Part shown: positions 16,118 through 43,078 of the stretch, piece after piece
How the letters are laid out: each line of letters opens with the position of its first letter
Numbering within the stretch: position 1 is the stretch's first letter
DNA from: Bradyrhizobium sp. NFR13
GTDB lineage: Bacteria; Pseudomonadota; Alphaproteobacteria; Rhizobiales; Xanthobacteraceae
DNA: 64,000 nt
Direction: 5' to 3'
NCBI RefSeq assembly: GCF_900114605.1
Contig: NZ_FOTP01000007.1
Location: 248,001 to 312,000, forward strand
The notes under the pieces: generated by a model
Seen by the model: the letters and a program-made list of their open reading frames with translations, nothing else
Database searches by the model: none
Told to the model about the DNA's origin: nothing
Program-made: the position numbers and the translations under genes

Positions 16118-16131
16118 TTGACTCACGTCAA
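16118..16131 (+). promoter_or_regulatory. FixK/FNR-type box upstream of phasin-like gene
   Basis: TTGACTCACGTCAA: both half sites are complete and symmetric, fitting TTG[AC]-N6-[TG]CAA. Its centre is about 80 bp before the start codon at 16204, consistent with class II activation and a leader of about 40 nt. Confidence 0.65.
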
Positions 16132-16203
16132 AGTCTCGGGATCCGCGCGGATCAACATGGCGCACAAGCTCATGATCAAACCAGGTCGCCCATGGAGGCA
16201 TCA

Positions 16204-16587
16204 ATGTCTGAAAGCAACGGCGTTCCACATAGCGTCCCCGCAATCGTAACCGCGCTGCGCCAGCGCGCCGCGCAGACGGCCGCAGTCCAATCCGAGCTCG
16301 CCAAGAAGGTGGGCGAGATCAACCAGCATTGGCTTGAGCGGATTCAGAAAGATTCGACCGAAGCCTGGCAGTTGCTGTTCAAGCTCGGTGGAACACCCGC
16401 AGTCGGCGAAAAGATCAAGCTTTGCGAACAATGGATCGAGGGCGCGATGAAGAACGCCGCCGACGATGCCAGCTACTCGTTGGACAGTGCGAGGGCTCTC
16501 GGCGAGCTTGAAATGCGCTTCTTCTCGCCGGTCGGCACTATGGAAACGAAAGCGTCGGAAAATGGTACCGAATTCGGTACCCCGTGA
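16204..16587 (+). CDS. phasin-like helical protein
   Basis: 127 aa, almost wholly helical and without signal peptide. It contains LRQRAAQTAAVQSELAKKVG, then WLERIQKDSTEAWQLLFKLG and CEQWIEGAMKNAADDASYSL, the amphipathic heptad-rich pattern of phasins, which coat polyhydroxyalkanoate granules. The start at 16204 is preceded by GGAGG, and a further upstream ATG at 16192 lacks one. A strong FixK-type box at 16118 suggests induction under low oxygen. The phasin assignment rests on pattern rather than a diagnostic motif, and a general stress helical protein is possible. Confidence 0.6.
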   Translation: MSESNGVPHSVPAIVTALRQRAAQTAAVQSELAKKVGEINQHWLERIQKDSTEAWQLLFKLGGTPAVGEKIKLCEQWIEGAMKNAADDASYSLDSARALGELEMRFFSPVGTMETKASENGTEFGTP

Positions 16588-16622
16588 GCACGAACAGCCT
16601 GCGGATACGACGGGAGGCGGAC

Positions 16623-17148: not shown

Positions 17149-18591
17149 TTGAACAAAGAAGTGCGGCTCTTCATTCCGTATGCCGCGGCCGCGGCCGCGG
17201 CGGCCACGGCGATGACGTTGCACATGCTGCTCGAAAATTACTTCGAGGGCCGCACATTTACGGTCATCTACGTACCGGTCGTCGTCTTTGCCGCCTTCGT
17301 AGGTGGCCGCGGCCCCGCTATTCTCGCCACCTTGCTGTGCATCATTGGTAGTTTGGCAATCGTCGGCGGTAGAGAACTTCTGTTGCATCCGGCCAACGTC
17401 ATCGATCTTTCGTTTTTCGCGGTGGTCGGCCCCGTGCTGGGATTGATGGGAGACCGCTTGTTGAAGGAGTCCGATCGCGCGCGCGAGCGGCAGGCGCACC
17501 TCCAATCGATCTTGGACACGGTGCCGGAGGCCATGATCGTCATTGACGAAGAAGGCATCATGCGATCCTTCAGCGCCGCAGCTATCCGGCTGTTCGGATG
17601 GAACGCCACCGAAGCCATCGGCAGGAACGTCTCAATGTTGATGCCGTCTCCATACCGCTCGGAGCACGATGGCTATCTCGGCCGCTACCGACGAACTGGT
17701 GAGCGCCGCATCATCGGCATCGGCCGCATCGTCGTCGGAGAGCGCAAGGACGGATCAACGTTCCCGATGGAGCTCTCCGTCGGCGAGGCGAAGATCGGCG
17801 ACGCCCGGTTCTTTACCGGTTTCGTTCGCGACCTCACCGAGAGGCGGACGCAGGAACGCCGCGTTCAGGAACTCCAGTCGGAGCTCGTCCACGTCTCTCG
17901 TCTGACCGCGATGGGCGAAATGGCATCGTCGCTGGCGCATGAACTCAATCAGCCGCTGTCCGCGATCACTAACTATGTGCGCGGCGCCAAGACGTTGCTC
18001 AAGCAGCCGGATCCGGACCGGTCCCGGATAGCGGATGCGCTCGATCGGACAGCCGAACAGGCGCTACGCGCAGGGGAGATCATCGCCAGGCTACGGGAGT
18101 TCGTGGCCAAGGGCGAAACGCAGTCAGCACTGGAGAATCCTGGCACTCTGCTGGAAGAGGCGGCGGCGCTTGCCCTTTTCGGAGCGCGGGATCTCGGCAT
18201 CCACGTGACTCTGCGTGCCGAACCGGACATGCCGCTGGTTCTTGTCGACAGTATCCAGATCCAGCAGGTGGCTCTCAATCTCATCCGCAACGCAATCGAA
18301 GCAATGGCGACTCAGGATCGACGCGATCTCGGCATCACCGTCCGCCGCGACGGCGATGCCGCGTTGTTTGAAATCTCGGACACCGGGGACGGCATCGGCG
18401 AGGAGATCCGAGGCCGCCTGTTCCAGCCTTTCGTCAGTACCAAGCCGGACGGCATGGGCGTCGGCCTCTCGATCTGCCGCACGATCGTCGAGGCCCATGG
18501 CGGCCGCATCTGGGCCGAGCCGGTGCGAGAGGGCGGCACCCGGTTCCAGTTCACTTTGCCCTTTGCAGAACAGGTCCCGCGACATGAATGA
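17149..18591 (+). CDS. fixL: oxygen-sensing histidine kinase FixL
   Basis: 480 aa. Residues 8-100 hold four membrane segments. A haem-binding PAS domain spans about 118-230: [26 protein letters not shown] with the proximal haem His173, and IIGIGR with Arg193 matching the O2-stabilising arginine of known FixL. HisKA follows with phospho-acceptor His264 in [14 protein letters not shown], then an ATPase domain with [10 protein letters not shown] (N box) and [10 protein letters not shown] (G box). O2 bound to haem blocks autokinase activity; low O2 releases it to phosphorylate FixJ. The start is TTG at 17149 with GGGGGA upstream, because the nearer ATG runs into a stop. It overlaps fixJ by eight bases. 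Confidence 0.93.
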
Positions 18592-19189
18592 TAGACCTAC
18601 GGTCGACATCATCGACGACGATCCGGCCATGCGCGATTCCCTGGCCTTCCTGCTCGATGTCAACGGATTCAAGGCGCGTGCGCACGCGACCGCCGCGGCG
18701 TTCCTCGAGCATATCCGAACATCCGCGCCCGATTGCGTCGTCTCCGACATCCGCATGCCCGGCATGAGCGGGCTGGATCTTGTCCGCAAACTCAAGGCGG
18801 ACGGCGTGCCCTGTCCCGTCGTCGCCATCACCGGTCACGGTGATATCGCGCTGGCCGTCGAGGCCATGAAGGCCGGTGCGGCCGATTTTATCGAGAAGCC
18901 GTTCGACGACGATGCGCTACTTTCGGCCGTGCGATCGGCCATGGCAGCAAAACCGAGCACTGGCTCGGACGCCGGACGTGACGGCGCGATGGCGCGTCTT
19001 GCGGACCTGTCGCCGCGCGAGCGCGACGTGCTGCAGGGCTTGGTATCCGGGAAGATCAACAAGGTGATCGCACACGATCTCGGGATCAGTCCGCGCACCG
19101 TCGAGGTTTACCGGGCCAACCTGATGGCGAAGACCGGCGCGCGGAGCATGTCGGAGCTCATGCGACTGGCGCTCGCGGCGGGACTGTAA
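18584..19189 (+). CDS. fixJ: response regulator FixJ
   Basis: 201 aa. The receiver domain (1-125) has acidic DDD at 11-13, phospho-acceptor Asp55 in VVSDIRMPG, Thr83 and Lys105 in EKPF. The C-terminal LuxR-type helix-turn-helix (140-200) reads [20 protein letters not shown], then [13 protein letters not shown]. Phosphorylated by FixL at low O2, it dimerises and activates promoters, classically fixK. Here fixK is 15 kb away at 34453, inside the same island. The start overlaps the FixL stop by eight bases. It converges on the mce gene 24 bp away. Confidence 0.93.
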
Positions 19190-19213: not shown

Positions 19214-20320
19214 CTATTGCGATTCCCGCGCCGTCCATCGTACCAGATCGCGCGCGAGAGACTGGAAGGCCTTGTTGAAGGCGGCCGCAGCCTCGGCCGG
19301 ATCCATAGCACCGATCGGCTGCGATACGCTGAAGATCCGAGCCGCCGTCACCTTGTTCGACTCATCTAGAATTTTCGCCGACATCACGATGATGGCCTTG
19401 GCATCGGCCGACGGTTCGATCTCGAATCTGCGAATATCCAGCAAGACCCGCACTCCCCCCTGCCCTGCATTGTCGGGACGCAGCGGGGGATGATCGACGT
19501 CGTAGTTCTCGAAGCTCTGAAGCAGCTTCGCCTGCAGGAGGGCCGGCAGACTGTCGCTCCATTGCGCCGCCGCGAAGCCGGGTCGGTCCTCACCCGATGG
19601 AAACAGGAAGCGTTGCGTCTGCAGCCGCGCGATCGCTGTGGGTTCGCCGATGGTGATCTGCCCCTTCATGCGGGGCTGTCCCGGTTCGAATGGAGGAGCT
19701 TCGAGGTCGTAGGTCGTCTTGGCCTGCGGCGTCTGGCCGCCACCCATCGTCCGGTCCAGCCCGGCCAGGATGCTGTCCACGCGCGGCGTATTGCGCGCCA
19801 GACCCTCCGCGAAGATCTTCAGGTTGGCGACCGTATCGCGGAGCGGGTCCGCGTTCTCTGACAGGACGGCGTCCACACGCCGCAGCGCATCCCGCGCCGC
19901 CTGCGTCATGCTCTGGCCCGCGCCCGGGCCGGCCTGCAGGACGTCGCCGGGATTTAGACCCGCGGTGTCGCTACCACCTTCCAGCGCAACGACCGGCACG
20001 CCGGTGAGCCCCTGGAAGTCCAGTCCGATTCTGGTGTCCTTGCGGACGGGGGTCTCGATGGACACCGCTACGGTCGCGGCCACGGCCCGCGGACGCGCAG
20101 GGTCGAGACGCAGCGACGTGACTTCTCCGACGCGTATCCCGTTGAAAAGGACAGCCGCTCCGGTCAACAGCCCGGGAACGGGACCGTCGAAGGCGATCTG
20201 ATAGGTCGCTCGGCGTCCGACGGCGCCGGCGTTTTTCAGCCAATAGACGAAACCGAACACGCCGACGATCACGGCGAGTACGAACGCTCCGACGATCACG
20301 AATGGCGCGCGCGTTTCCAT
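19214..20320 (-). CDS. MCE/MlaD-family protein fused to ABC transport auxiliary domain
   Basis: 368 aa. One N-terminal membrane anchor (about 8-28) is followed by an MCE domain (40-120: VLFNGIRVGEVTSLRLDP, then LDFQGLTGVPVVALEGG). The C-terminal 150 residues (from the TYDLEAPPF segment) look like the ABC-type transport auxiliary domain that is normally a separate lipoprotein of PqiC type. The protein would sit in the periplasm, handing phospholipids between membranes for the adjacent MlaE/MlaF. AGGAG precedes ATG 20320. It lies 9 bp after the ATPase stop and forms one operon with it. Confidence 0.85.
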   Translation of the reverse strand: METRAPFVIVGAFVLAVIVGVFGFVYWLKNAGAVGRRATYQIAFDGPVPGLLTGAAVLFNGIRVGEVTSLRLDPARPRAVAATVAVSIETPVRKDTRIGLDFQGLTGVPVVALEGGSDTAGLNPGDVLQAGPGAGQSMTQAARDALRRVDAVLSENADPLRDTVANLKIFAEGLARNTPRVDSILAGLDRTMGGGQTPQAKTTYDLEAPPFEPGQPRMKGQITIGEPTAIARLQTQRFLFPSGEDRPGFAAAQWSDSLPALLQAKLLQSFENYDVDHPPLRPDNAGQGGVRVLLDIRRFEIEPSADAKAIIVMSAKILDESNKVTAARIFSVSQPIGAMDPAEAAAAFNKAFQSLARDLVRWTARESQ

Positions 20321-20329: not shown

Positions 20330-21079
20330 CTAGGCGGCAGGGCTGTGGATCATCTTGGCGCGTACGCCGTGGAAGTAGCTCCTGACCCACGGATGATCCG
20401 AGGCCCGGACGTCGTCGAGGGAGCCCAGCGCGGCGATCTTTCCGTCGGCGAGTGCGGCGACGCGGTCACAGATCGATGCGAGACTGCTGAGGTCGTGGGT
20501 GACCATGAACACCGTCAGGTCGAGCGTCTTCTGCAGCACGGTGATAAGAGAGTCGAACTCACCCGCAGCGATGGGGTCGAGCCCCGACGTGGGTTCATCG
20601 AGAAACAGGATCGCCGGATCCAGCGCAAGCGCGCGCGCAAGCGCGACGCGCTTGGTCATTCCGCCCGATAGTTCGGAGGGAAACTTTTCGCCGTCGGCCG
20701 CCGTCAGGCCCACCATTTCGAGCTTGGCATTGGCGATCTCGTCCAACAATTCGTCCGAGATGTTGACGTTCTCGCGCAACGGAAACTGCACGTTCTGGCG
20801 GGCGTTTAACGACGAAAATAGCGCTCCCTGCTGGAAAAGGACGCCTAGGCGGCTGACCGGGCGACGTTCGATCTGCGGATCGATGCGTATCTCGCCGCTC
20901 CGCTTCGGCAGCAACCCGATCATCGCGCGCATGAGGACGGACTTGCCGCCTCCGGAGGCGCCGACCAGCCCCATCGTCTCGCCCCGGCGGACGGTGAGTG
21001 ACAGGTGATCGATAACCACGTGGCGACCAAAGCCGACCACCAGATCGTCGATTTGGATGGCTGAATCGGGCTCGGACAT
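20330..21079 (-). CDS. MlaF-like ABC ATPase of lipid transporter
   Basis: 249 aa. It starts MSEPDSAIQIDDLVVGFGRH. Walker A GASGGGKS at 40-47, signature ELSGGMTKRVALARAL, Walker B AILFLDEPTSGLDP and switch His in VTHDLSSL are all present. The GGM-TKR form of the signature is characteristic of the Mkl/MlaF branch that energises MCE lipid transporters. Longer in-frame extensions upstream are antisense to MlaE and rejected. Two bases separate it from the MlaE stop. Confidence 0.9.
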   Translation of the reverse strand: MSEPDSAIQIDDLVVGFGRHVVIDHLSLTVRRGETMGLVGASGGGKSVLMRAMIGLLPKRSGEIRIDPQIERRPVSRLGVLFQQGALFSSLNARQNVQFPLRENVNISDELLDEIANAKLEMVGLTAADGEKFPSELSGGMTKRVALARALALDPAILFLDEPTSGLDPIAAGEFDSLITVLQKTLDLTVFMVTHDLSSLASICDRVAALADGKIAALGSLDDVRASDHPWVRSYFHGVRAKMIHSPAA

Positions 21080-21081
21080 CA

Positions 21082-22233
21082 CTACATTCCGATCGAGGCG
21101 AAGAACACGGCGAAGATGCCGTCGATGACGATGACGAGAAAGATCGATTTCACGACCGAGGCAGTGGTCTGACGGCCAAGCGACTCGGCGCTTCCCTTCA
21201 CGCGCAAGCCTTCCACCGCTGCGACAATGCCGATGACCAGAGCCATGAACGGTGCCTTGATGAGACCGACCTCGAAATGCGTCACGGAAACCGCCTCGCG
21301 AAGCCGCGCGATGAAAATCGCCGGGCTCATTCCGCCGTAGAGCCATGCGACGAGACCGCCGCCGTAGAGCGCTGCCAGCGAGCCGAGGAAGGCGAGGATC
21401 GGCAATGCTATGATCAGCGCCAGTACGCGTGGCACGATTAGCACTTCGATGGGGTCCCGCTCCATGGTGATCAGGGCGTCGATCTCCTCGCGCATCTTCA
21501 TGGAACCAATCTCGGCAGTGTAGGCGCTCCCGGAGCGGCCAGCGACCATGATGGCGACGATCAGAACTCCGATCTCGCGCAGCACCAGAATGCCGACCAT
21601 ATCGACCACATAGGATTCCGCGCCGAAGCGCCTGAAGTGGAAGATACCCTGCTGGGCGATGATCGCGCCGATCAGGAAGGTGATGAGCAGCATGATCGGA
21701 ATGGCCTGCCAACCGACCCGAAACAACTGATAGACGGTTGAGGTCAGGCGCAGCCGCGCAGGTCGCAGCATGATGAGTCCGAGGCTGGCACTGACCGCCC
21801 CGAGCAGATGCAGAAACGCCACGACATCACGGGACATGCTTGCCATGTAGTCCGCTGCGCGCTCGATCTGTACTTGCGGCCAGGCCTTTCGCGGTTCGAT
21901 GTCCGAAGGCCGCCTGTTGAGGCCATGTGCCTGCGCGAGCAGCCCTGACAGGGATGTCGTAAGGCCGTGGACTTCCACGGCGGCGCCACCGGCGGACTCA
22001 CGGGTCAATTTCTCGAGAACCCAGGCACCGGACGTATCCAGGGCCGTCACGGCCGTCAGATCGAGTTCGCCGCCAGACGCCGGGTGGAGACGCAATTCCG
22101 CCTCGCGGAGCAGCCGTTCCATCAACTCGGCATGCTCCACTGTCCAAGAGCCACCAGCGACGAAGGCTAGTGGTCGCCCAGGCTGTGCTGTCAGCGTCGG
22201 AAGTGGATCAGGCGGGCTCATGGCGTCTTGCAT
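21082..22233 (-). CDS. MlaE-family lipid transporter permease with N-terminal STAS domain
   Basis: About 383 aa. A STAS-like region (residues 15-115, with LDTSGAWVLEKL) precedes the MlaE permease: VGWQAIPIMLLITFLIGAII, GSAYTAEIGSMKMREEIDAL and ITMERDPIEVLIVPRV are family marks. It would form the membrane channel for retrograde or anterograde phospholipid movement with the ATPase and MCE protein. The frame stays open to 22323, but a perfect FixK box occupies 22310-22323 and another lies at 22268-22281. Start 22233 (or 22221) downstream of them is therefore preferred. No strong ribosome site is seen for either. Confidence 0.85.
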   Translation of the reverse strand: MQDAMSPPDPLPTLTAQPGRPLAFVAGGSWTVEHAELMERLLREAELRLHPASGGELDLTAVTALDTSGAWVLEKLTRESAGGAAVEVHGLTTSLSGLLAQAHGLNRRPSDIEPRKAWPQVQIERAADYMASMSRDVVAFLHLLGAVSASLGLIMLRPARLRLTSTVYQLFRVGWQAIPIMLLITFLIGAIIAQQGIFHFRRFGAESYVVDMVGILVLREIGVLIVAIMVAGRSGSAYTAEIGSMKMREEIDALITMERDPIEVLIVPRVLALIIALPILAFLGSLAALYGGGLVAWLYGGMSPAIFIARLREAVSVTHFEVGLIKAPFMALVIGIVAAVEGLRVKGSAESLGRQTTASVVKSIFLVIVIDGIFAVFFASIGM

Positions 22234-22267: not shown

Positions 22268-22281
22268 TTGATCAAACGCAA
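22268..22281 (-). promoter_or_regulatory. FixK/FNR-type box (second of a pair)
   Basis: TTGATCAAACGCAA on plus, TTGCGTTTGATCAA on minus; fits TTG[AC]-N6-[TG]CAA. Its centre lies exactly 42 bp from that of the neighbouring box, so each box falls on the expected start site driven by the other. Confidence 0.55.
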
Positions 22282-22309: not shown

Positions 22310-22323
22310 TTGACGTGGGTCAA
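22310..22323. promoter_or_regulatory. FixK/FNR-type box between mla operon and divergent small genes
   Basis: TTGACGTGGGTCAA, perfectly symmetric TTGAC-N4-GTCAA. For the minus-strand mla operon it predicts a transcript start near 22275, ahead of the preferred MlaE start. For the plus strand it predicts one near 22358, just before 22371. Confidence 0.7.
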
Positions 22324-22370
22324 TCGGCAGAACGGAAATAGGCATACTCTGCGGATGGTGAGGGAGCAGG

Positions 22371-22634: not shown

Positions 22635-22649
22635 CCAAAGGGACATCCC

Positions 22650-23238: not shown

Positions 23239-25935
23239 TCATTGCGCCCGCAGATCCAGCGAAACCAGTGCGATGGCTGGATCCTCTGGATCGCTCCCGA
23301 CTTGGAAGCCCAAAGCCCGGCACATCTGCAGCATGCCGTCGTTCGATTGCAGCACGTCGCCATGCAGTTCGAGAAGACCTTCGCTCTTCGCGTAGCGGAT
23401 CAGTTCGGTCATCAGGGCCCAGCCGAGGCCATGGCCCTTCCTGTCGGAGCGGACCAGAACGGCATATTCCGCCGTCCTGTACTGGGAATCCGAATGCAGA
23501 CGCGAGACCCCGAGTATTTCGCCGCTGCCGGGAGCCACGGCGGCGAAAGCCATGGCGCGCGCGTAATCGAGTTGCGTCAGCCGGGCGACGAACGGGTGCG
23601 GGAATTCCTTGATCGCCCCGAGAAACCTCGAATGCAAGTCGCCGGCATCGGTGTGGTCAAGCAGATGCTTGATGGCGGCCTCGTCCTCCGGCACGACAGG
23701 ACGCAGGCGGACGGTCTCGCCGTCCTGCAGAACGACGTCGCGCTGCCATACTGCGGGAAACGGCCGGATGGCCAGCCGCGTCTGTCCTGCGAAAAGGCGC
23801 TCCGGTACGGCCACCGCGATCCGCGCATCCAGCGCCAGAACGCCGGCTTCGTCCGCAAGCAACGGATTGATGTCGAGTTCGCGGATCAGCGGAAGGTCGA
23901 TCGCCATCTGCGATAATTTCAGCAGCGTCATCTGGACGGCGTCTTCCTTGACGGCGGGGACATCGCGGTAGCCAGCCAGTTGCCGCGCGACCGCGGTGCG
24001 CTTCACCAGATCGTCCGCCAGCTTCATGTCGAGCGGCGGCAATGCGAGCGCCTTGTCGTTGATGATTTCGACGGCAGTTCCGCCACGACCGAAAGCGACC
24101 ACCGGTCCGAACGTCGAATCGTCGGCAAGGCCAGCGATCAATTCCCGCGCGCGCGGCCGCATGATCATCGGCTGGACGATAACGCCGGCAATGCGGGCGT
24201 CTGGACACTTGGCTGTCACCGCCTCCATCATCGCACCGTGGGCAAGGCGGACAGCGTCGGCGTCCCGCAGGCCAAGCACCACGCCTCCGACATCGGACTT
24301 GTGCACGATGTCGCGCGACAGAATCTTCATAACTACCGCATGGCCCTTCCGGAAGAAGCCTTCCGATAGTGATACGGCTTCGTCCACATTCGCCGCCATC
24401 CGCGTCGGGACGATCGGGATGTCGTAGGCGTCGAACACCGCCGCGATTTCCAACGGGTCGAGCCAACCGCGCCCCTCCCCGATGGCTTGGTCCAGGACGC
24501 GTTGCGCAGCGGCACGATCGACCTTGACGCCCGCCATAACTCCAGGAGGTGTCGCCATCAGCGTTTGCATCGACTCATGATGATGCACGCCGTAAATGAA
24601 AGCGCGTATGGCATCGTCCTCCGTCGGGAAATTCGGAATGCCAGCGGAGTCGAGGGGCGCCGACACCGCCGCGTCGGCACCGACGAAGGCGGCCAACACC
24701 GGTTTCGGCAGTGATCCGGACCCGTTGCCCCTGTGCTCCGATACGGTATCGGCTACCGCACGGGCGATGGCGACGGGATCCGCCACGGCGGTCTGGACAT
24801 TCATTACCAGGACGGCATCGTTGTCGGCGTCGTCAAGCAGGGCATCCAGCGCCGCCCGGTAGACGTCAGCACCCGCATCGCCGCCGACATCCACCGGGTT
24901 AGACCCTGACCATCCGCCAAGTGCATCGTCCAGCCGCGATCTGACGGCCCTCCCAAGGTCCGCCGGAACGCCACCGAGTTCGACCAACCGATCGACTGCC
25001 AGGATGCCCAGACCCCCGCCGTTGGTGAGGATGGCGAGACGCCGCCCGCGAGGCTCGACGCCCCCTGCCAGCACCTCGGCGCAGTCGAACAACTCCCTGA
25101 GGTCGAACACGCGCAGTAGGCCTGCGCGGCGAAAGGCGGCGTCGTAGACAGCGTCGGCGCCCGCCAGCGCTCCGGTATGCGTGACCGCCGCCTTGGCGCC
25201 CTGCGCCATGCGGCCCGCCTTGACCACAACTACGGGCTTCACGCGCGCCGCAGCACGCGCCGCCGACATAAACTTTCGCGCATCCGGGATCGCCTCCAGA
25301 TAGAGTAAGATGGCCCGGGTGCCCGGATCCGACGCGAAGTAGTCAAGACAATCGGCAAGATCGACGTCGAGTTGATCCCCGATCGAGACGATTCCTGAGA
25401 AGCCAACGGGCCGCCGCGCCGCCCAGTCGACCATGGCGGCTACAATCGCACCTGACTGTGAAATCAGAGCCAATGATCCTTCGCTTGGCATGTGCGCGGC
25501 GAAGCTCGCGTTCAGGCGATGCTGCGGCACAAGTAGACCCAGGCAGTTCGGCCCGATCAACCGTAGTCCGCCCTTCTTCGCCGCATCGAGTGCAGCTGCG
25601 GCGAAAGAATTCGCGCCGTGACCCAGACCGGCACTAAGGATGACGGCTCCTGCCGCGCCCTTGATGGCAGCTGCGGCAATGATCCCCGGTACGGCCGCCG
25701 CCGGCGCCGTGACGACGACGAGATCCGGCGTGAAAGGCAGAGCGTCGAGGGACGCAAACGTCTTGTGGCCCTCGATGTCCGGATGCACGGGATTGACGAC
25801 CCCGAATTTGCCAGCGTATCCCGCCGCGCGGATGTTGCGCAGAACGGCGGCTCCCAATGATCTTGGACGGGGACTCGCGCCGACGAGGGCGAGTGCCTGG
25901 GGAGCCAGCAGCTTCTCTAACCTGTACGTTGACAT
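23239..25935 (-). CDS. ADP-forming acyl-CoA synthetase-like protein with C-terminal GNAT domain (Pat type)
   Basis: 898 aa. It has a CoA-binding Rossmann domain (10-130), ligase-CoA domain, ATP-grasp region (about 490-700) and C-terminal GNAT acetyltransferase (about 730-898, with RKGHGLG near 832). This is the architecture of Pat/YfiQ, the acyl-CoA-responsive protein lysine acetyltransferase that inactivates AMP-forming acyl-CoA synthetases. Unlike enteric Pat, which lacks it as far as I recall, the phospho-His of active ADP-forming ligases appears kept (His253 in VTHTGALAG). The protein may therefore still make or use acyl-CoA with ATP. The start at 25935 lies inside the end of the CBS gene, indicating coupling. 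Confidence 0.85.
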   Translation of the reverse strand: MSTYRLEKLLAPQALALVGASPRPRSLGAAVLRNIRAAGYAGKFGVVNPVHPDIEGHKTFASLDALPFTPDLVVVTAPAAAVPGIIAAAAIKGAAGAVILSAGLGHGANSFAAAALDAAKKGGLRLIGPNCLGLLVPQHRLNASFAAHMPSEGSLALISQSGAIVAAMVDWAARRPVGFSGIVSIGDQLDVDLADCLDYFASDPGTRAILLYLEAIPDARKFMSAARAAARVKPVVVVKAGRMAQGAKAAVTHTGALAGADAVYDAAFRRAGLLRVFDLRELFDCAEVLAGGVEPRGRRLAILTNGGGLGILAVDRLVELGGVPADLGRAVRSRLDDALGGWSGSNPVDVGGDAGADVYRAALDALLDDADNDAVLVMNVQTAVADPVAIARAVADTVSEHRGNGSGSLPKPVLAAFVGADAAVSAPLDSAGIPNFPTEDDAIRAFIYGVHHHESMQTLMATPPGVMAGVKVDRAAAQRVLDQAIGEGRGWLDPLEIAAVFDAYDIPIVPTRMAANVDEAVSLSEGFFRKGHAVVMKILSRDIVHKSDVGGVVLGLRDADAVRLAHGAMMEAVTAKCPDARIAGVIVQPMIMRPRARELIAGLADDSTFGPVVAFGRGGTAVEIINDKALALPPLDMKLADDLVKRTAVARQLAGYRDVPAVKEDAVQMTLLKLSQMAIDLPLIRELDINPLLADEAGVLALDARIAVAVPERLFAGQTRLAIRPFPAVWQRDVVLQDGETVRLRPVVPEDEAAIKHLLDHTDAGDLHSRFLGAIKEFPHPFVARLTQLDYARAMAFAAVAPGSGEILGVSRLHSDSQYRTAEYAVLVRSDRKGHGLGWALMTELIRYAKSEGLLELHGDVLQSNDGMLQMCRALGFQVGSDPEDPAIALVSLDLRAQ

Positions 25936-26393: not shown

Positions 26394-26413
26394 GGTTCGC
26401 TCCCGGGCGGCCG

Positions 26414-32556: not shown

Positions 32557-32612
32557 CGACAAGGCGGTCGGAAACATGGCAAAACAGCTTCGGGGTGAGG
32601 AAAGAAGAGATC

Positions 32613-32950: not shown

Positions 32951-32964
32951 TTGCGCAAAATCAA
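32951..32964 (+). promoter_or_regulatory. FixK/FNR-type box upstream of CBS-CBS-BON gene
   Basis: TTGCGCAAAATCAA, identical to the box at 26994-27007. Its centre is 63 bp before ATG 33021, predicting a 20-25 nt leader with its ribosome site. Confidence 0.68.
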
Positions 32965-34345: not shown

Positions 34346-34358
34346 CGATCGTCGCGAC

Positions 34359-34387
34359 TACGTAATAATACCTAGGGGAAACATCCC
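34359..34387 (+). promoter_or_regulatory. candidate FixJ-responsive promoter element of fixK
   Basis: The segment runs from TACGTAATAATACC through CTAGGGGAAACATCCC, 65-95 bp before the fixK ATG. TAGGGGAAAC on this strand reads GTTTCCCCTA on the other, similar to the TTTCCC core I recall from FixJ sites at rhizobial fixK promoters. The match is by memory, not alignment. Confidence 0.4.
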
Positions 34388-34452: not shown

Positions 34453-35121
34453 ATGCTGAGCCAGACCACGCACGCAGCCGCACTCCCCTCAATGCCTTTC
34501 GGGGCCATACCACAACAGCTGCGGGAGGGTCGGCCGCATCTCGGTGCCACAAAATGCTTCGCGCGCAATGCCGAGATCTTCGGAGAAGACGAGCCTGCGA
34601 CGCACATTTATCGTGTCGTCTCCGGCGCAGTACGGGCCTATAGAATTCTGCACGACGGCCGCCGACAGATCACGGCCTTTTATCTGCCGGGGGATTTGTT
34701 CGGATTCGAGGGCGGTAGCAACCACCTCAATTCTTGCGAAGCGATCTGCGAAAGTCAGATATGCGTCATCAGACTGAACGCCGCCTCGGGCACCATGACA
34801 GGACCGGTCGATACGACGCGCGATCTCTGGCCTATGGTGAAGGAAGAACTTCGCCGCATGCAGGATCATATGGTCCTCCTCGTTCGCAGCGCCGAAGAAC
34901 GGGTCGCCCACTTTTTGCTCGAGATGTCACACCGTGGCGGCAATCCAGGCAGTGTAAACCTACAGATGTCGCGTCAGGATATCGCTGACTACCTAGGCAT
35001 TACAATCGAGACGGTGTCACGCACCTTGACCCATTTCGAGCAGGCCGGCCTCATCTCGCTGCGCACGTCGAGACAAATCGATCTTTGCAGGCGCTCCGCC
35101 CTCGCCCGACTTAACGCTTGA
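34453..35121 (+). CDS. fixK: Crp/Fnr-family regulator FixK
   Basis: 222 aa. A cyclic-nucleotide-like beta barrel (about 35-130, IYRVVSGAVRAYRILHDGRR, YLPGDLFGFEGG) and dimer helix are followed by a winged helix (about 165-220) with recognition helix ITIETVSRTLTHFEQAGLI. The E-T-V-S-R contact pattern predicts TTGA/TCAA half sites, matching the boxes across this region. It lacks the N-terminal cysteine cluster of true Fnr, so it should depend on FixJ for expression rather than sense O2 itself. GAGGAG precedes the start. It ends tail-to-tail with the metal ATPase gene, overlapping 11 bp. Confidence 0.88.
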   Translation: MLSQTTHAAALPSMPFGAIPQQLREGRPHLGATKCFARNAEIFGEDEPATHIYRVVSGAVRAYRILHDGRRQITAFYLPGDLFGFEGGSNHLNSCEAICESQICVIRLNAASGTMTGPVDTTRDLWPMVKEELRRMQDHMVLLVRSAEERVAHFLLEMSHRGGNPGSVNLQMSRQDIADYLGITIETVSRTLTHFEQAGLISLRTSRQIDLCRRSALARLNA

Positions 35122-36991
35122 CGGGGACAGCTGAAACTTCGGCGACAGGCAACACGTTCGCCGCCGGCCCGCGAAGCGCTCGCAGCGCGTTTGCGATAGC
35201 GGCGACGTCAATCGCCTCCTGTAAGAGCGCGCCCTGGACCGGGGCCAGATACCCAAAAGCAGCCGCGATCATCCCAATGAGGGATAGGCCAGTCCCCAAC
35301 AGAACGCTCTGATAGGCGATCACCCTGGATCGCTTCGCGATGTCGATCGACACCAAAACGCGATTGAGACGATCAACGAGAAGCACGACGTCCGCGGCCT
35401 CCGAAGAGGCGGCGGCACCTCTCGCCCCCATAGCGACACCTATGTCCGCAGCCGCCAGGGCTGGCGCGTCGTTAATCCCGTCGCCGACCATCATGACGCG
35501 CCCGCCCTTACGTTCAGCCCGCACGATCTCCGTCTTCTGGTCCGGGCTCAGCTCGGCGTGGACCGCATCGAAACCCAATCCGGTCACTGTCGCCTCGGCG
35601 ATATCCCTGCGATCTCCCGTTGCGAGGACGATGCGTTGGATTCCCCTGCGTCTAAGATCGTCCAGCAGGCCCGACATGCCGCGGCGGATCCGGTCTCCAA
35701 GAACGATCTCGCCGACCGCCCGCCCGTCCAGCCCGACCATCACCACCAGCGATCCGGCATCCGGATGGGCGCTCATCGGAGAGACGCCGCAGATCGTATT
35801 CCGCGAGACGAAGCCCGATCCCCCGACTACGACGCGCCTGCCGTCCACCCGCCCGATGATGCCATCACCCGGTGTCTCGACCACCTCTGTGGGCAAGGAT
35901 AACTCTAATCCGCGCCGGCGCGCCTCTTCAACGATGGTGCCGGCGACGACATGTTTCGACACCTGGTCGAGCGACGCCGCGAGACGGAATACTTCGAGGT
36001 CTGAAACCCCATTGGCATGGATCGCAAGGACGTTCGGACGCCCGTCGGTGAGAGTTCCAGTCTTGTCCAAAACCAGTCGCTGGATTCTAGCTAGACCTTC
36101 AATGGCGCTTCCCCCCTTGATCAGGATGCCATGCCGGGCCGCGCGCGACAGCCCCGCGATGAATGCGATCGGGACGGCGAGAATCAACGGGCACGGTGTC
36201 GCCACGACAAGAACCGCGACGACGCGAATAACGTCACCGCTGAAGTACCAGGCAAGACCCGCGATGCCGGCTGTCAGCAACAGGAATGCCATCGCGAAGC
36301 GGTCGGCGAGTCTCGACATCGGCGCTTTCGATTGCTGCGCCGCCTCGACCAAGCGGACGATCCCGGCGAACGTGCTTTCGGCGGCCGGACGCGAAGCCAC
36401 CATGGTGAATGTGTCACCTGCATTGTAGACGCCGCTCGACACGCTTTCCCCTGCGCTTCGCCGCACCGGCATCGCTTCGCCGGTCAACGCGGATTCGTCC
36501 AGGATGGCAACTCCGTCCGTTACGGTCCCGTCGGTCGGGACCGGATCGCCCTGACGGATCAGCAGGTGATCGCCGGACGCGAGCGCGTCGACGGGAACCT
36601 CCTCCAGACGACCATCGTGCAGCCGCATCGCGACCAGCGGTACGCGGGACAGCAGCGCTGTCATTTCGCGCCGCGCACTGCGGTCGGCGTAGGCTTCGAG
36701 GAATTGCCCGCCGGCATACATGAGCGCCACGACCACCGCGGCAAGCTGCTCGCCGGTGCTCAGGGCGGCAATCATCGAAAATGCTGCCACGATGTCGAGC
36801 CCGAACTCGCCGCGTCGCAGGCCTGTCACGATCTGTGCCAAGAGCGCGACCAGAACCGGAATCGCACTTACTGTCCAGACGGTTGCGCGCCATGCAGATA
36901 GCCCGATCCAAGGCGAGGCGAGCCCTGCACAAAGCCCCAAAGCTGTGGCTCCAATGAGAGCGCCGCGCATCCAGAAGATTGGGTTTTTCAA
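35111..36991 (-). CDS. P1B-type metal ATPase with TPCP motif (P1B-5 like)
   Basis: About 626 aa. It has eight or so membrane helices, no N-terminal metal-binding domain, transport motif TPCP (about 265-268) in a core helix, phosphorylation site DKTGTLTDG (about 309), TGEAMPV in the actuator, and GDGINDAPALAAADIGVAMG in the hinge. TPCP marks the P1B-5 group, whose Sinorhizobium member Nia exports Ni2+/Fe2+ in nodules. This one lacks a C-terminal haemerythrin domain. TTG at 36991 is chosen as start: GGAGG lies six bases upstream, and ATG 37033 would lie ahead of the transcript start expected from the FixK box at 37060. Start uncertain. Confidence 0.85.
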   Translation of the reverse strand: MKNPIFWMRGALIGATALGLCAGLASPWIGLSAWRATVWTVSAIPVLVALLAQIVTGLRRGEFGLDIVAAFSMIAALSTGEQLAAVVVALMYAGGQFLEAYADRSARREMTALLSRVPLVAMRLHDGRLEEVPVDALASGDHLLIRQGDPVPTDGTVTDGVAILDESALTGEAMPVRRSAGESVSSGVYNAGDTFTMVASRPAAESTFAGIVRLVEAAQQSKAPMSRLADRFAMAFLLLTAGIAGLAWYFSGDVIRVVAVLVVATPCPLILAVPIAFIAGLSRAARHGILIKGGSAIEGLARIQRLVLDKTGTLTDGRPNVLAIHANGVSDLEVFRLAASLDQVSKHVVAGTIVEEARRRGLELSLPTEVVETPGDGIIGRVDGRRVVVGGSGFVSRNTICGVSPMSAHPDAGSLVVMVGLDGRAVGEIVLGDRIRRGMSGLLDDLRRRGIQRIVLATGDRRDIAEATVTGLGFDAVHAELSPDQKTEIVRAERKGGRVMMVGDGINDAPALAAADIGVAMGARGAAASSEAADVVLLVDRLNRVLVSIDIAKRSRVIAYQSVLLGTGLSLIGMIAAAFGYLAPVQGALLQEAIDVAAIANALRALRGPAANVLPVAEVSAVPVKR

Positions 36992-37059: not shown

Positions 37060-37073
37060 TTGATACGGATCAA
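37060..37073. promoter_or_regulatory. perfect FixK/FNR box between metal ATPase and phosphoketolase units
   Basis: TTGATACGGATCAA, the textbook TTGAT-N4-ATCAA dyad. Its centre is 75 bp from the ATPase start, and it points the other way toward the CBS remnant and phosphoketolase gene. Confidence 0.75.
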
Positions 37074-37332: not shown

Positions 37333-39708
37333 ATGTTGAACGCACACGATATCGAGCTTATCGACCGCTACTGGCGGGCCGCAAATTATCTTTCGGTGGG
37401 ACAAATCTATCTGCTCGGCAATGTCCTTCTTCGAGAGCCGCTGCGCGCCGATCATATCAAGCCGAGACTGCTCGGACATTGGGGGACCACGCCGGGCCTG
37501 AATTTCATCTACGCACACCTGAACAGGGCCATCCGCGAGCGCGATCTCGACATGATCTACGTCTGCGGTCCCGGTCACGGCGGCCCCGGCATGGTTGCCA
37601 ACACCTATCTCGAGGGCAGCTACAGCGAGGTTTATCCGGAGATCACGCGGGATGCCGACGGGCTTCAAAAGCTATTCCGGCAGTTTTCCTTTCCCGGAGG
37701 CATTCCAAGCCACGCTGCCCCGGAGACGCCTGGGTCCATTCACGAAGGTGGCGAACTCGGCTACGCGTTGGTTCATGCCTTCGGCGCTGCGTTCGACAAT
37801 CCCGATCTGATCGTCGCCTGCGTTGTCGGAGACGGTGAAGCCGAGACGGGTCCGCTGGCGGCTTCGTGGCATTCGAACAAATTTCTCGATCCTGCCCATG
37901 ACGGCGCCGTGCTGCCGATCCTACACCTCAATGGCTACAAGATCGCCAATCCCACGGTGCTCGGTCGTCTCGAAGTCGGCGAGCTTCGGAGTTTGTTCGT
38001 AGGCTACGGCTACGACCCGATCTTCGTCGAAGGCAGCGTTCCGAACGAGATGCATCGCGAAATGGCAGCGGCGCTGGACGACGCCTTCGATCGTATCCGC
38101 GCCATTCAGGAGCGTTCCCGCGGCGGCTCCGCTAGCGGGCGCCCGAAATGGCCGATGATTGTCCTGCGAAGCCCGAAGGGCTGGACCGGGCCGAAGGAAA
38201 TCGACGGGAAAAAAGTCGAGGGCTTCTGGCGTTCGCACCAGGTTCCGATCGCAGACCCGCGAACCGACGCTGGCCACCTTGCCTTGCTCGAAGAATGGAT
38301 GCGCAGTTATCAGCTAGACACGCTGTTCGACGAAGCAGGCCGATTGCTCCCCGATCTTCAGGCTTTAGCACCTGAAAACGAGCGCCGCATGGGATCCAAT
38401 CCGCACGCGAACGGCGGCCTTCTGAAGCGCGAACTGAAACTGCCGGACTTCCGGTCTCATGCGGTAGACGTTCCCGAGCCGGGTGCGATCGACGGCGAAG
38501 CAACACGAGTCATGGGAGCATATCTGCGCGACGTCATTATCCTGAATTCCGAGGCCAGGAACTTCCGCATCATGGGCCCCGACGAAACCGCGTCCAACCG
38601 GCTCGACGCCGTCTTCGACGTCACGGAGCGGGTCTGGATGGAGGACATCAAGCCCTACGACGTTCATCTTGCGCGTGACGGCCGCATAATGGAGATACTG
38701 AGCGAGCACCTCTGCCAAGGCTGGCTCGAAGGCTATCTGTTGACCGGCCGGCACGGGCTGATGTCCTGCTATGAAGCCTTCATCCACATCGTCGACTCGA
38801 TGTTCAATCAGCACGCGAAATGGCTCAAGGTCTCGCGGGCGTTGCCTTGGCGTCAGTCGATAGCGTCACTGACCTATCTGCTGACATCCCACGTCTGGCG
38901 GCAGGATCACAACGGCTTCAGCCATCAGGATCCCGGCTTCGTTGATATGGTCGCCAATAAGAAGGCAGACGTTGTTCGCATCTATTACCCGCCGGATGCC
39001 AATACGCTGCTATGGGTCACCGACCATTGCCTGCGCACCTACGACCGGATTAACGTGATCGTTGCCGGCAAGCAGCCCGCACCGCAGTGGCTCACAATGC
39101 GCGAGGCCATCACCCATTGTGAGGCTGGCGTCGGCATCTGGCCATGGGCAGGAACTGAGGAGGCCGGCTGCGAGCCAGATATCGTAATGGCCTGCTGCGG
39201 AGATGTTCCGACATTGGAGACGCTTGCCGCGGTGGATCTTCTGCAACAAGACTTCCCGGACTTGCGGATTCGGGTCGTCAACGTCGTCGATCTGATGACG
39301 CTCCAAGACCAGACGCAGCATCCGCACGGACTTGGCAGCCGGGATTACGAGAGCATCTTCACCCGCGACCGTCCGGTGGTCTTCGCCTATCACGGCTATC
39401 CAAGTCTGATCCACCGCCTCGCCTATCGCCGCAGCAATCATCACAATCTGCACGTCCATGGCTTTCAGGAAGAAGGCACGACCACAACCCCGTTCGACAT
39501 GGTAGTTCTGAATCACCTGGATCGCTTCCATCTGGCCATCAAAGCGATCGATTCGCTCCCAGCACTGGCAACCGCTGGCGCGCTGGCCAAGCAGCGACAT
39601 CGCGATCGCCTGATCCAACATGGTCGCTACATCCGCGAGTATGGAGAAGACATGGCTGAAATCCTCGAATGGCGATGGACCGCTCGATCGCGCACCGGAG
39701 CACACTAG
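37333..39708 (+). CDS. xfp: phosphoketolase (Xfp)
   Basis: 791 aa, full length. The thiamine-diphosphate enzyme cleaves xylulose-5-P or fructose-6-P with phosphate to acetyl-P plus a sugar phosphate. Family marks are [62 protein letters not shown] (ThDP/Mg site) and [18 protein letters not shown]. Acetyl-P can yield ATP through acetate kinase, useful when respiration stalls; no ackA is next to it here. GGGAAG precedes the ATG. A FixK box lies 260 bp upstream, separated by a CBS remnant. Confidence 0.95.
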
Positions 39709-40041: not shown

Positions 40042-40055
40042 TTGAACACAAGCAA
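40042..40055 (+). promoter_or_regulatory. possible FixK/FNR-type box upstream of PQQ dehydrogenase
   Basis: TTGAACACAAGCAA fits TTG[AC]-N6-[TG]CAA but the right half is GCAA rather than TCAA. Its centre is 68 bp before the GTG start at 40117, the same spacing as at hsp20 and the 33021 gene. Confidence 0.42.
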
Positions 40056-40116
40056 TAGAGGCAATATGATCTCCGGCAATCTGCGAGTCGCAATCTCGGC
40101 AGTTGAGGAGGATTCC

Positions 40117-42174
40117 GTGACGGATGCACACCGCGGGATGTGCGCGATTTTCGCGTTTGCAGCGATCGCCTTGTGGGCACCGCCAGCCTGGCCAGCCGAA
40201 CCGGAAAGAAAGAGCGGATACGCAATCGGCGCTGAGCAATGCGGCAACCGGGACATGTCTTTTCCAAGGCTCAGGATCGACATGAAGAAAGGGTTCTGCG
40301 CCGGTCTGGTGCTGAGCGAACTGGACGGGCTAAGATTTCCGCGCTCCATCGTGCAGATCCCGGGTCATGAGCAGTTTGTGATTTCCGACATGGGAGGATG
40401 GAATCGAGCGGATGGGCGGTTGCTGCTGCTCGATCCGCGCGCGGCGGAGGGCAAGCGGATCCGGGAAATCGTCACCGGCCTCGAGTATCCGTTCGGTCTC
40501 GCCGTCGGCCCCGACAAGAAGGTGTATGCATCAACCGCGGAGACGATCTTCCGCTTCGACCCGCTGGCGGCGGATCCACAGCGCACGATCGAAACGATCG
40601 TTCTGAACCTTCCGGGACGCCACGTCACCCTGTCGGACGGCACCAAGGTCAACGAGAGCAGCCATTCGCTCAAGCACTTCATTTTCGACCGCACGGGGCG
40701 CATCTTCGTCAATGTCGGATCGCACAGCGACGACTGCATCACAAAGGCCCCTATCACCAAGCCATGCGCGGCCGGCGAAGGATCATCCCCGCTTGCCTCG
40801 ATCTGGATGTTCACGCCGAGAGCCGGAAGCGTTTTCGCTGCTCTCGGGCCGAACGATGTCAATCCGCCACGCGAGATTTACGCGCGCGGCCTGCGCAATT
40901 CCATGGCGCTTGCGGTCCACCCCCGCTTCCCCGATGCGGGCTACGCCTTCTTGCAGGGAGAGAATGCGAGAGACTTGCAGGACATCTTCAAACCTAACGA
41001 GGAACTGAACGCAATCGAGAAAGGCAAGCATTACGGCTGGCCGTATTGCTACGACCTTTCGACCCAGAGCCCCGAGTTCAGGACCGTCCTGCAAGCCGGG
41101 CCCTACAAGGACCTTTGCAACAACGGTGCGATTTACAGGCCGCCGCATTCGCTGCTGCCGCCACACGGCGCACCGCTCGGGATGCTATACTACCACGGCA
41201 GCAAGTTCCCCGAACTGGACGGCAAACTTCTCGTCGGCCTACACGGCTATCGGCCGACCGGCAGCCGCCTGCTGATCTACGACGTGGACGGCCGTGGTTT
41301 CCCGAAAGTGAGCGCGGCGCCTGTGCGCTTTCAGGTAAGCTGCGGTGCGGAGCCGAGCCGCGCCTTTCAGACCGACGCCGGTAACGCTCCTGCGGCACCG
41401 TACGAGGAGCTGATATCGGGCTGGTATCGGGTGAACGGCGCGCGGCCGCAAGGCGCACCGGTCGGAATGACCGTGGCCGCCGATGGTGCGATATGGATTG
41501 TCGAGGACAAGAACAAGTCCGTCATCCGCATTGATCGGGCATCCGGCAATCTGCCTGAAGCGCTGCCATGTGGCATGCGAACGCCCGAGCAGATCGATGA
41601 GCTTGCCGGGTTCGTAGCGAACGATCCCAAGAACAAGGCGCGGCTGACGGCCGTTAGGACCAAGCTTGTCGAAAAGCACTGCCTCGGCTGCCACTCGGAT
41701 TTCGGCCTGAGGGCGGGACAGCCGGAAGCGGAGAAGGATCAGACGGTCCTGCGCTTTATGCTGTCGCAGGACGGCTGGATTTATCCCGGCGACCCGGACT
41801 CCGGGAAGCTGCGCACGCGGCTGCGCGGATTCGGGGCGGAGAAGTTGATGCCGCCGGGCGGGGAGAAGCTGCCCCAGACGGAGCCGGGCTACGCGCAGAT
41901 TCTGAACCTTGCCGACTATCTCGCCGGGACGATGGTTCCCGGCACGAGAATGAAGATCAAACCCGGTCCGGTGCAGAGAATGTTCGTAAGCAGGAATGAC
42001 AGAGAATGCGGCGAAATCCCGACCACTAAGGTCGTCGTGGTGACACAAAAGAACGCGGTAGGTAAGCCGGGCTTCAGCCGGTTCTATCGACCGGCCGACA
42101 TCTTCCTTAACGGCGAGTGCAGCGACGCAGATGGCTATTATATACGGCAAGATTTTCTCGTGCCTTTGCTGTAG
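40117..42174 (+). CDS. periplasmic PQQ-type sugar dehydrogenase with C-terminal cytochrome c site
   Basis: 685 aa. GTG 40117 is used because GAGGAGG sits directly upstream and the protein then begins with a signal peptide (1-27, cut after WPA). Residues 60-500 form a six-bladed glucose/sorbosone dehydrogenase-like propeller (SDMGGWNRADGRLLLLDP, YPFGLAVGPDKKVYAST, IYARGLRNSMALAVHP). A haem c site CLGCH lies near 523. It would oxidise a sugar or alcohol in the periplasm and feed electrons to its own haem. A lactonase-like gene overlaps its end by 44 bases. Confidence 0.82.
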   Translation: MTDAHRGMCAIFAFAAIALWAPPAWPAEPERKSGYAIGAEQCGNRDMSFPRLRIDMKKGFCAGLVLSELDGLRFPRSIVQIPGHEQFVISDMGGWNRADGRLLLLDPRAAEGKRIREIVTGLEYPFGLAVGPDKKVYASTAETIFRFDPLAADPQRTIETIVLNLPGRHVTLSDGTKVNESSHSLKHFIFDRTGRIFVNVGSHSDDCITKAPITKPCAAGEGSSPLASIWMFTPRAGSVFAALGPNDVNPPREIYARGLRNSMALAVHPRFPDAGYAFLQGENARDLQDIFKPNEELNAIEKGKHYGWPYCYDLSTQSPEFRTVLQAGPYKDLCNNGAIYRPPHSLLPPHGAPLGMLYYHGSKFPELDGKLLVGLHGYRPTGSRLLIYDVDGRGFPKVSAAPVRFQVSCGAEPSRAFQTDAGNAPAAPYEELISGWYRVNGARPQGAPVGMTVAADGAIWIVEDKNKSVIRIDRASGNLPEALPCGMRTPEQIDELAGFVANDPKNKARLTAVRTKLVEKHCLGCHSDFGLRAGQPEAEKDQTVLRFMLSQDGWIYPGDPDSGKLRTRLRGFGAEKLMPPGGEKLPQTEPGYAQILNLADYLAGTMVPGTRMKIKPGPVQRMFVSRNDRECGEIPTTKVVVVTQKNAVGKPGFSRFYRPADIFLNGECSDADGYYIRQDFLVPLL

Positions 42175-43078
42175 CGCCGCCGCTTTCCTGGCGGCGGCAA
42201 CACCGGCGCCTGCGGGAGAAAAACTGTTCGAAAGCGTCCAAGTTACGCCCGCAGGTGAGTACACTTCGGGCATCGAAGGGCCTGCCGTTGATCTCGACGG
42301 AAATCTCTATGTCGTGAATTTTGGACGACAGGGCACGATTGGCATGCTCGCGCCCGGAAGCCTTGCGTCGGACAATTTCATCGAACTTCCGGAAGGCAGC
42401 GTCGGCAATTCAATCCGCTTCGCCCGAGACGGAACGATGTTCATCGCGGACTACAAGAAGCACAACATCTTCGCGATCAAGAAGGGCAGCCGTGTGGCAG
42501 AGGTCTGGTTTCACTCCGACCAAATGCACCAGCCCAATGACATGACGATTGCGCGCGACGGCACGATCTACGCTAGTGATCCGAACTGGAAAGAACACAG
42601 CGGCCAGATCTGGCGGATCTGGAAAGGGCTGGATGGATCGGTGCAGGGCCAGGTCATGACTGCACCGCGGACGATGGGCACGACCAACGGGATCGATCTC
42701 AGCCCCGATGAGAAGACCCTGTATGTCGGGGAGTCAGGAAGCGGCCAGATCTGGTCCTATAGCATTCACGGCAGCGCACTTGGTGACGCAAAGCTGATCA
42801 AGACGTTCGAGCGCAACACTATCGACGGGATCCGTACAGACATGACCGGAAAGCTGCTCATTGCTCGCATTCTGAACGGGACAATTGCGGTCGTGACGCC
42901 CGGCGGCCTCCTTCAGCGAGAGATCGCCCTTAAGAACAAAGAGCCCTCGAACCTCGCCTTTGGCGGCAACGACGGCAGGACAGTCTTTGTCACCCAAAGA
43001 CAAGGCGGCTTCATCGAGTCTTTCCGCTCGGACAACAAAGGACGCGAGTACTGTCTTCAGAAGACCGATTGCCGCTAA
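42131..43078 (+). CDS. secreted SMP-30/gluconolactonase-like protein
   Basis: 315 aa with signal peptide (1-28, cut after APA). The propeller repeats contain GIEGPAVDLDGNLYVVNFG, MHQPNDMTIARDGTIYASDP and TNGIDLSPDEKTLYVGES, typical of SMP-30/gluconolactonases, which hydrolyse sugar lactones using a divalent metal. It overlaps the PQQ dehydrogenase gene by 44 bases in another frame, so both are co-translated. Together they would turn an aldose into its acid in the periplasm. Confidence 0.85.
   Translation: MAIIYGKIFSCLCCSAAAFLAAATPAPAGEKLFESVQVTPAGEYTSGIEGPAVDLDGNLYVVNFGRQGTIGMLAPGSLASDNFIELPEGSVGNSIRFARDGTMFIADYKKHNIFAIKKGSRVAEVWFHSDQMHQPNDMTIARDGTIYASDPNWKEHSGQIWRIWKGLDGSVQGQVMTAPRTMGTTNGIDLSPDEKTLYVGESGSGQIWSYSIHGSALGDAKLIKTFERNTIDGIRTDMTGKLLIARILNGTIAVVTPGGLLQREIALKNKEPSNLAFGGNDGRTVFVTQRQGGFIESFRSDNKGREYCLQKTDCR

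Follow-up and report, generated by a model that had tools for sequence, protein, structure and literature searches.

The 64-kb window analysed here, a term we use for the whole stretch G000:C16:248001-312000 of Bradyrhizobium sp. NFR13 (genome of 6.22 Mb in 17 contigs), very probably holds, as judged from its sequence, a compact microoxic island with FixLJ and FixK, of the type known from Nitrobacteraceae. At positions 16118-43078 the genes for the haem sensor FixL, its response regulator FixJ and the activator FixK stand together with the genes that FixK is predicted to activate, and the intergenic DNA among them is enriched in FixK boxes, TTGM-N6-KCAA. The same gene order and most of the boxes recur at another chromosomal place in Tardiphaga sp. 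P9-11 (G002), in agreement with the treatment of this block as a unit in a previous sequence-only reading of the window.

The regulators and the fixK promoter

17149..18591, plus strand: FixL, with a DUF4118 membrane domain, a haem PAS domain, HisKA and HATPase_c
18584..19189, plus strand: FixJ, with a receiver and a LuxR-type DNA-binding (GerE) domain
34453..35121, plus strand: FixK, a Crp/Fnr-type activator without the Fnr cysteine cluster

These three assignments had been proposed from the letters alone, and haem residues, an NCBIfam cut-off and cysteine positions bear them out. The PAS domain of FixL aligns over 130 residues with the B. japonicum FixL structures (1dp6, 2cmn, 1y28), and its haem pocket has the proximal histidine and the FG-loop arginine, namely, H200, R206 and R220 are kept and an arginine takes the place of H214. 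This numbering of the pocket residues (H200, R206, H214, R220) is the one we presume for the B. japonicum protein, and the residues mutated in 2cmn and 1y28 are consistent with it. FixJ scored 279.3 bits against NCBIfam NF006900, above the cut-off of 255.

FixK has cysteines only at positions 35, 95, 99, 104 and 212, and it lacks an N-terminal cysteine cluster; FixK is told from Fnr by the absence of one or more of the four Fnr cluster cysteines (PMC2908626). Among solved structures, that of B. japonicum FixK2 is the closest to it (4i2o, E 2e-50), the best chain named 'FNR type regulator' reaching 3e-24, and in a tree the island FixK is separate from the Crp/Fnr proteins encoded on contigs C8 and C14, which points to kinship with FixK2 rather than with Fnr. 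The column of B. diazoefficiens FixK2 Cys183 holds a serine in the island protein, and the redox-sensitive cysteine is therefore absent. This Cys183 marks the FixK subtype of Nitrobacter, Bradyrhizobium and Rhodopseudomonas (PMC2908626), and a FixK2 C183S variant is active and insensitive to oxidation (PMC9104804). A single-domain FixT-like receiver gene is not among the listed genes of the island, a list to which no search aimed at FixT contributed; several loci of the family carry a receiver-like gene beside fixK.

In the fixK promoter the FixK pattern TTGM-N6-KCAA does not occur. At 34358..34385 this promoter contains a candidate FixJ box, CTACGTAATAATACCTAGGGGAAACATC. The complement of the box has the block CCCCT(T)AGGTAnTATTACGTAG, which is also seen upstream of fixK in two Xanthobacter loci (L035, L036) and, over a shorter part, in the fixK promoter of G002. 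When 29 fixK promoters were scored against the S. meliloti FixJ site, several, such as those of L006, L010, L013 and L039, proved strong (0 of 100 shuffles as good), those of G002, L017, L018 and L031 weak (22, 32, 49 and 47 of 100 shuffles as good, respectively), and the fixK promoter on contig C7 of the window's own genome had no FixJ-like site (100 of 100). The FixJ motif from systematic evolution of ligands by exponential enrichment (SELEX), GTAMGTAG, has one match in the window, at 17268 within fixL, and was set aside as not informative. Control of fixK by FixJ is likely, although the candidate box, similar in the two Xanthobacter loci, matches the S. meliloti site weakly.

FixK boxes and their predicted targets

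All nine 14-mers that had been reported for the island were found at the coordinates given. The window holds twelve matches to TTGM-N6-KCAA, namely, these nine, one more intergenic match at 27107 and two coding ones at 29897 and 45841, and 11 of the 12 lie inside 16118-43078. Dinucleotide shuffles yield 3.43 matches per window (maximum 9 in 100 shuffles), close to the previous estimate of about four by chance. The intergenic background came from 40 further stretches of 20 kb in this genome, 0.8 of its 6.22 Mb in all and 133527 bp of it intergenic. They contain 18 matches, at most 4 in any stretch, as compared with 10 in the 5501 bp of intergenic DNA of the island. The background rate predicts 0.74 for the island. 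Three of the 40 stretches had been chosen near oxygen genes (L099, L119 for ccoN, and L117 for the Crp/Fnr gene on C8), and their inclusion works against our own enrichment figure.

The spacing and the order of the letters both matter. In the island, a spacer of 6 gives 10 matches, a spacer of 4 gives one and the eight other spacers between 2 and 11 give none; likewise, each of 11 other orders of the half-sites gives 0 or 1 match. For the G002 island the counts are 6 with the true order and 0 to 2 with the others. We also scored a FixK matrix trained on 52 sites from 27 loci of other genomes, with G000 and G002 excluded. Only strict TTGA-N6-TCAA sites entered the matrix, which is thus independent of the window and not of the motif; in two of its loci (L031, L071) the gene finder gave no usable genes, and their sites may not be intergenic. 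On the 0.8-Mb sample of the genome, positions with a score of at least 6 number 10 in 5618 bp for the island and 56 in 132767 bp for the background (4.2-fold, Poisson P 1.8e-4), and with a score of at least 12 they number 9 and 11, respectively (19-fold, P 1.9e-9), the coding DNA of the background having 26 such positions in 666473 bp. The nine island positions at this higher score are eight of the nine reported earlier plus 27107. Matrix scores no better than background had been named beforehand as the result that would speak against a FixK island; the 4- to 19-fold enrichment in this sample is the opposite, with boxes ahead of target genes above background, as expected of a FixK regulon.

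The boxes are given below with their matrix scores. Distances run from the box centre to start codons picked by the purine-rich stretch ahead of them, and the letters are those shared with the G002 counterpart.

16118..16131: score 20.4, 79.5 bp before ATG 16204, 13 of 14 letters
22268..22281: score 12.3, before mlaE, 12 of 14 letters
22310..22323: score 19.4, before mlaE, 11 of 14 letters
26994..27007: score 14.3, 70.5 bp before hsp20, 13 of 14 letters, the G002 counterpart preceding CBS-Pat genes
27107..27120: FixK-like box additional to the nine, score 14.4, between hsp20 and the CBS gene, no counterpart at that place in G002
27573..27586: score 20.9, 122.5 bp before ATG 27702, 14 of 14 letters
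31646..31659: score 14.6, 76.5 bp before usp, 14 of 14 letters
32951..32964: score 12.9, 63.5 bp before the CBS-BON gene
37060..37073: score 19.4, 75.5 bp before the P-ATPase start and 266.5 bp before phosphoketolase
40042..40055: weak box, score 6.3, 17.5 bp before ATG 40066

The boxes had been described as mostly centred 60-80 bp before start codons, and this holds for five of the nine; it does not hold for the CBS gene (122.5 bp), for 40042 (17.5 bp) or for mlaE, whose start is unsettled and whose two boxes lie 42 to 177 bp ahead of it, depending on the start chosen.

The other genes of the island are as follows, with Pfam scans at E<=0.001.

16204..16587, plus strand: small conserved protein of 127 aa, no Pfam match, 73% identical in G002
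19214..20320, minus strand: MlaD/MCE-type substrate-binding protein
20330..21082, minus strand: MlaF-type ABC ATPase (ABC_tran), with an Mla role suggested by its MlaE and MlaD neighbours
21082..22140, minus strand: MlaE permease, in-frame ATG codons also at 22221 and 22233
23239..25857, minus strand: Pat-like protein, CoA-ligase-like domains plus GNAT acetyltransferase
25917..26435, minus strand: CBS-pair protein
26454..26930, minus strand: Hsp20 small heat-shock protein, ATG 26930 preceded by AGGAGG
27702..28295, plus strand: CBS-pair protein
28428..29411, plus strand: zinc alcohol dehydrogenase (TIGR02822)
29408..30964, plus strand: APH-like/AAA two-domain protein, probable kinase
31729..32556, plus strand: universal stress protein (usp)
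32595..32939, plus strand: small c-type cytochrome
33021..33743, plus strand: CBS-BON protein
35111..36991, minus strand: heavy-metal P-type (P1B) ATPase, probable TTG start at 36991, absent from the G002 island
37333..39708, plus strand: phosphoketolase (Xfp), 87% identical in G002, there directly after fixK
40066..42174, plus strand: GSDH/sorbosone-dehydrogenase-like protein, absent from the G002 island, doubtful member
42131..43078, plus strand: SMP-30/gluconolactonase-like protein, absent from the G002 island, doubtful member

The names given to the output genes from sequence alone hold in general, with two reservations. The P-type ATPase had been called P1B-5, a subfamily marked by a TPC motif and a C-terminal haemerythrin domain. 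The protein contains ATPCPL and no haemerythrin domain at the above threshold; the heavy-metal P1B type is established and the label P1B-5 is not. The two genes at 40-43 kb, in turn, are doubtful members without a convincing box. For the 127-aa gene at 16204, phasin was our initial guess, which we dropped as no Pfam family matched. Between mlaE and pat, a plus-strand frame at 22650-23060, divergent from mlaE, is conserved (the G002 counterpart has 120 aa) and belongs to no Pfam family. The gene finder had called a minus-strand open reading frame at 22320-23027; we take it to be a false gene on account of the conserved G002 frame on the opposite strand, and it was removed before the intergenic counts and controls.

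From these data we propose that, as oxygen falls, deoxy-haem FixL would phosphorylate FixJ, and that phosphorylated FixJ would switch on fixK. FixK, with serine at the FixK2 Cys183 position, would then activate about seven promoters through boxes that lie mostly 60-120 bp before start codons. Judging by position, the box at 16118 would serve the 127-aa gene ahead of fixLJ, those at 22268 and 22310 mlaEFD, 26994 hsp20-CBS-pat, 27573 CBS-adh-kinase, 31646 usp and cytochrome c, 32951 CBS-BON, and 37060 the P-ATPase and perhaps phosphoketolase as well. At low oxygen, the products may serve to protect proteins, to economise on ATP and to redirect the metabolism of acetyl-phosphate and CoA.

Conservation, distribution and FixK boxes elsewhere in the genome

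Among 17 congeners searched, only G002 has an island-type FixK of more than 70% identity. Its block runs in the order 127-aa gene, fixL, fixJ, mlaDFE, pat, CBS, CBS, kinase, usp, cytochrome c, CBS-BON, fixK and phosphoketolase, with a few genes of its own interspersed and without hsp20, adh, the P-ATPase and the two 40-43 kb genes. Of the nine boxes, six have a syntenic equivalent there that shares 11 to 14 of 14 letters, amid flanking DNA much of which aligns poorly; for those at 37060 and 40042, the genes downstream are missing from the G002 block. On the left, the homology of a hydantoinase/transporter block (about 87% identical in G002 and G009) covers window positions 7592-15763 and 7596-15779, respectively, and goes no further; in G002, this block and the island are on different contigs. 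On the right, about 1.2 kb around one gene aligned (43496-44702 in G010, 43719-44696 in G012), which defines no right edge, and none of the genomes examined joins both flanks. With a G+C content of 0.613, the island is no different from its flanks (0.625 and 0.618), and composition thus gives no support to a foreign origin.

A FixL match at E<=1e-60 was found in 34 of 61 genomes searched, including 7 of 18 genomes of the same genus (own included), and phosphoketolase in 14 of these 18. We also annotated 21 loci of other genomes, namely, 16 from 15 genomes plus 5 of 11 named loci. In nine of them (G021 twice, G032, G025, G007, G022, G036, G017 and L032), FixL, FixJ or FixK is accompanied by at least three of the output gene classes.

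FixK-type boxes and proteins also occur beyond the island. Strict boxes number 97 genome-wide (20 for the reversed control), one of them, at C6:1560983, about 340 bp before a ccoN match. A second FixK island of about 40 kb (G000:C7:326555-365773; L052-L054), with 12 strict boxes near TTGATCTRGATCAA, has a FixK of its own (G000:C7:342412-342978) that falls in another clade of the tree than the window FixK and that also, by eye, has serine at the FixK2 Cys183 position. A LuxR-type response regulator is divergent to this fixK, and about 10 kb away is a histidine kinase in which Pfam recognises no sensor domain; there is no FixL in this island. Genes preceded by its boxes include those of pyruvate formate-lyase (PFL) and a cation exchanger, along with what look like operons for PPK2 and for a sulfate permease. 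In the congener G016, which is without a FixL at the above threshold, almost the whole of this island can be aligned, at about 91% identity. The window FixL is the only match at this threshold in its own genome, where 26 of 72 first-look candidates were scored, and may, as such, also signal to targets elsewhere in that genome. It is tempting to speculate, as a tentative possibility, that the FixK islands of this genus are exchangeable cassettes with a swappable sensor, which would let one box answer two input signals in a single cell.

Alternative explanations and known systems

Several observations weigh against the island being a FixLJ-FixK module as described above. FixL reached 532.5 bits, matched from residue 96 on, against NCBIfam NF041777 (rhizobial FixL), below a cut-off of 850 that was set for close rhizobial orthologues, and FixK reached 206 bits where NF050806 (Caulobacter FixK) asks for 300. 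There is no FixK box between the 127-aa gene and fixL, although FixLJ belong to the core FixK targets (PMC2908626), the box at 32951 has no equivalent at that place in G002, and the one at 40042, with its low score, is probably spurious. When 34 stretches upstream of fixK were compared, duplicates included, the block CCCCT(T)AGGTAnTATTACGTAG recurred only at the two Xanthobacter loci, and the candidate FixJ box agrees with the S. meliloti site at 10 of 16 letters, 25 of 100 shuffles being as good. Ten of the 21 annotated loci have fewer than three output classes (G029, G030, G035, G051, G023, G014, G005, L034, L035 and L039), and two (G026, L031) were left unresolved by the gene finder. Finally, other Crp/Fnr proteins of the genome might use the island boxes.

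This last point can be extended into a rival explanation, namely, that the boxes are used mainly by another Crp/Fnr protein, such as that of C8 or the C7 FixK, and that the island is a target cluster of a general anaerobic network. Fnr, FixK and Dnr do have one common box (PMC2908626), and the C7 FixK (46% identical) and the C8 protein (43%) have, by eye, the same recognition-helix Glu, Ser and Arg as the island FixK. However, the box-bearing genes accompany the island FixK in G002, where no relative of the C7 FixK type is listed, and genome comparisons have placed such gene classes under FixK, not under Fnr (PMC2908626); we regard this explanation as unlikely. The motif is short and degenerate, with 409 matches in the 6.22-Mb genome (216 for the letter-reversed control), and its matches might cluster between genes by chance alone. 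For the island as a whole this is scarcely credible, as altered spacers and letter orders give 0-1 matches against 10, and matrix enrichment and conservation in G002 concur; chance was rejected on shuffles, background stretches, these controls and footprinting. Single sites such as 40042 are likely to be due to chance.

The sequence-only reading had gone further and described what looked like a self-contained dormancy programme, comparable to the DosR regulon of M. tuberculosis and built from FixK; such a programme would let non-growing cells persist. The lxa locus of Burkholderia has been likened to DosR in print (PMC6127331), and in B. dolosa FixLJ controls fixK (PMC5234846). The classes common to the island and DosR are Hsp20, Usp, CBS and P-type ATPase, the first two of which are documented (alpha-crystallin, Usp: PMC6127331), an analogy of function and not of membership. 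Against this reading, genes of these classes are raised during microoxic or anaerobic growth in Bradyrhizobium and Rhodopseudomonas, and boxes and Crp/Fnr proteins are also found outside the island, whose full self-containment is not supported in view of the second FixK, the C8 Crp/Fnr protein, the 97 strict boxes, the box near ccoN and the second FixK island. The DosR regulon also includes CBS proteins and a P-type ATPase, and is governed by the GAF-haem sensor kinases DosS/DosT and the regulator DosR. The families of sensor and regulator differ, since the island has a PAS-haem FixL and a Crp/Fnr-type regulator is expected at its boxes. A functional counterpart of DosR is doubtful, and a role in dormancy would be an inference.

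Taken as a FixLJ-FixK microoxic island, the block is of a kind already known, and as a system it bears out the core FixK regulon as published without extending it. This regulon, predicted in 2010 and best defined in Bradyrhizobiaceae, includes FixJ, FixL, parts of an ABC transporter (ATPase, permease and substrate protein), Hsp20, phosphoketolase, CBS, cytochrome c, kinase and zinc alcohol dehydrogenase (PMC2908626, Table 1). Its FixK2-dependent members in B. japonicum are blr6070, blr6071, blr4637, blr0497 and blr6074, and its FixK-dependent members in R. palustris are RPA4235, RPA4236, 'RSP4237' (as printed), RPA4238, RPA4239, RPA4249, RPA1672 and RPA1673 (PMC2908626). The island has the same gene classes and the same box, which is also that of Fnr and Dnr, with most such genes in one 27-kb block together with the regulators. 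Clustering itself is not new, since the locus numbers of RPA4235-4239 and of fixJ (RPA4249) also lie close together. What sets the island apart is the serine at position 183 of FixK, the added P1B-type ATPase and the lack of a box directly before fixL.

Similar sets of genes are known from two other systems. Proteins raised by microoxia in B. diazoefficiens include Mla, GNAT, Usp, CBS and phosphoketolase (PMC6515984); as in the island, MCE/Mla, GNAT, Usp and CBS genes are close by locus number, at bll6060-blr6074, and the phosphoketolase bll2518 is likewise raised (PMC6515984). Both ccoN matches of the window's genome are on other contigs than the island, unlike the arrangement in B. diazoefficiens. 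There, fixLJ-fixK2 presumably lie near fixNOQP and away from bll6060-blr6074, going by locus numbers. Of the former operon, fixO and fixP are blr2764 and blr2766 (PMC6515984). The large betaproteobacterial low-oxygen-activated (lxa) locus of B. cenocepacia (BCAM0275-BCAM0323), which we liken to the island by gene class, holds low-oxygen Usp, heat-shock, BON and cytochrome c genes with a FixK homologue as proposed regulator, and the fixK and fixLJ homologues (BCAM0049, BCAL2210/2211) are outside it (PMC6127331). Among the literature matches listed, Tardiphaga is not mentioned with FixLJ, FixK or a microaerobic theme, and this particular island may be undescribed.

What the island offers is a FixLJ-FixK module that is compact and testable and that does not come from a model rhizobium. 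Sensor, relay and activator are packed into 27 kb with about seven predicted target promoters, and its FixK naturally bears the serine found in the FixK2 variant that is insensitive to oxidation. The same genome also has the second island without FixL, and the pair could show how two sensors can feed one box.

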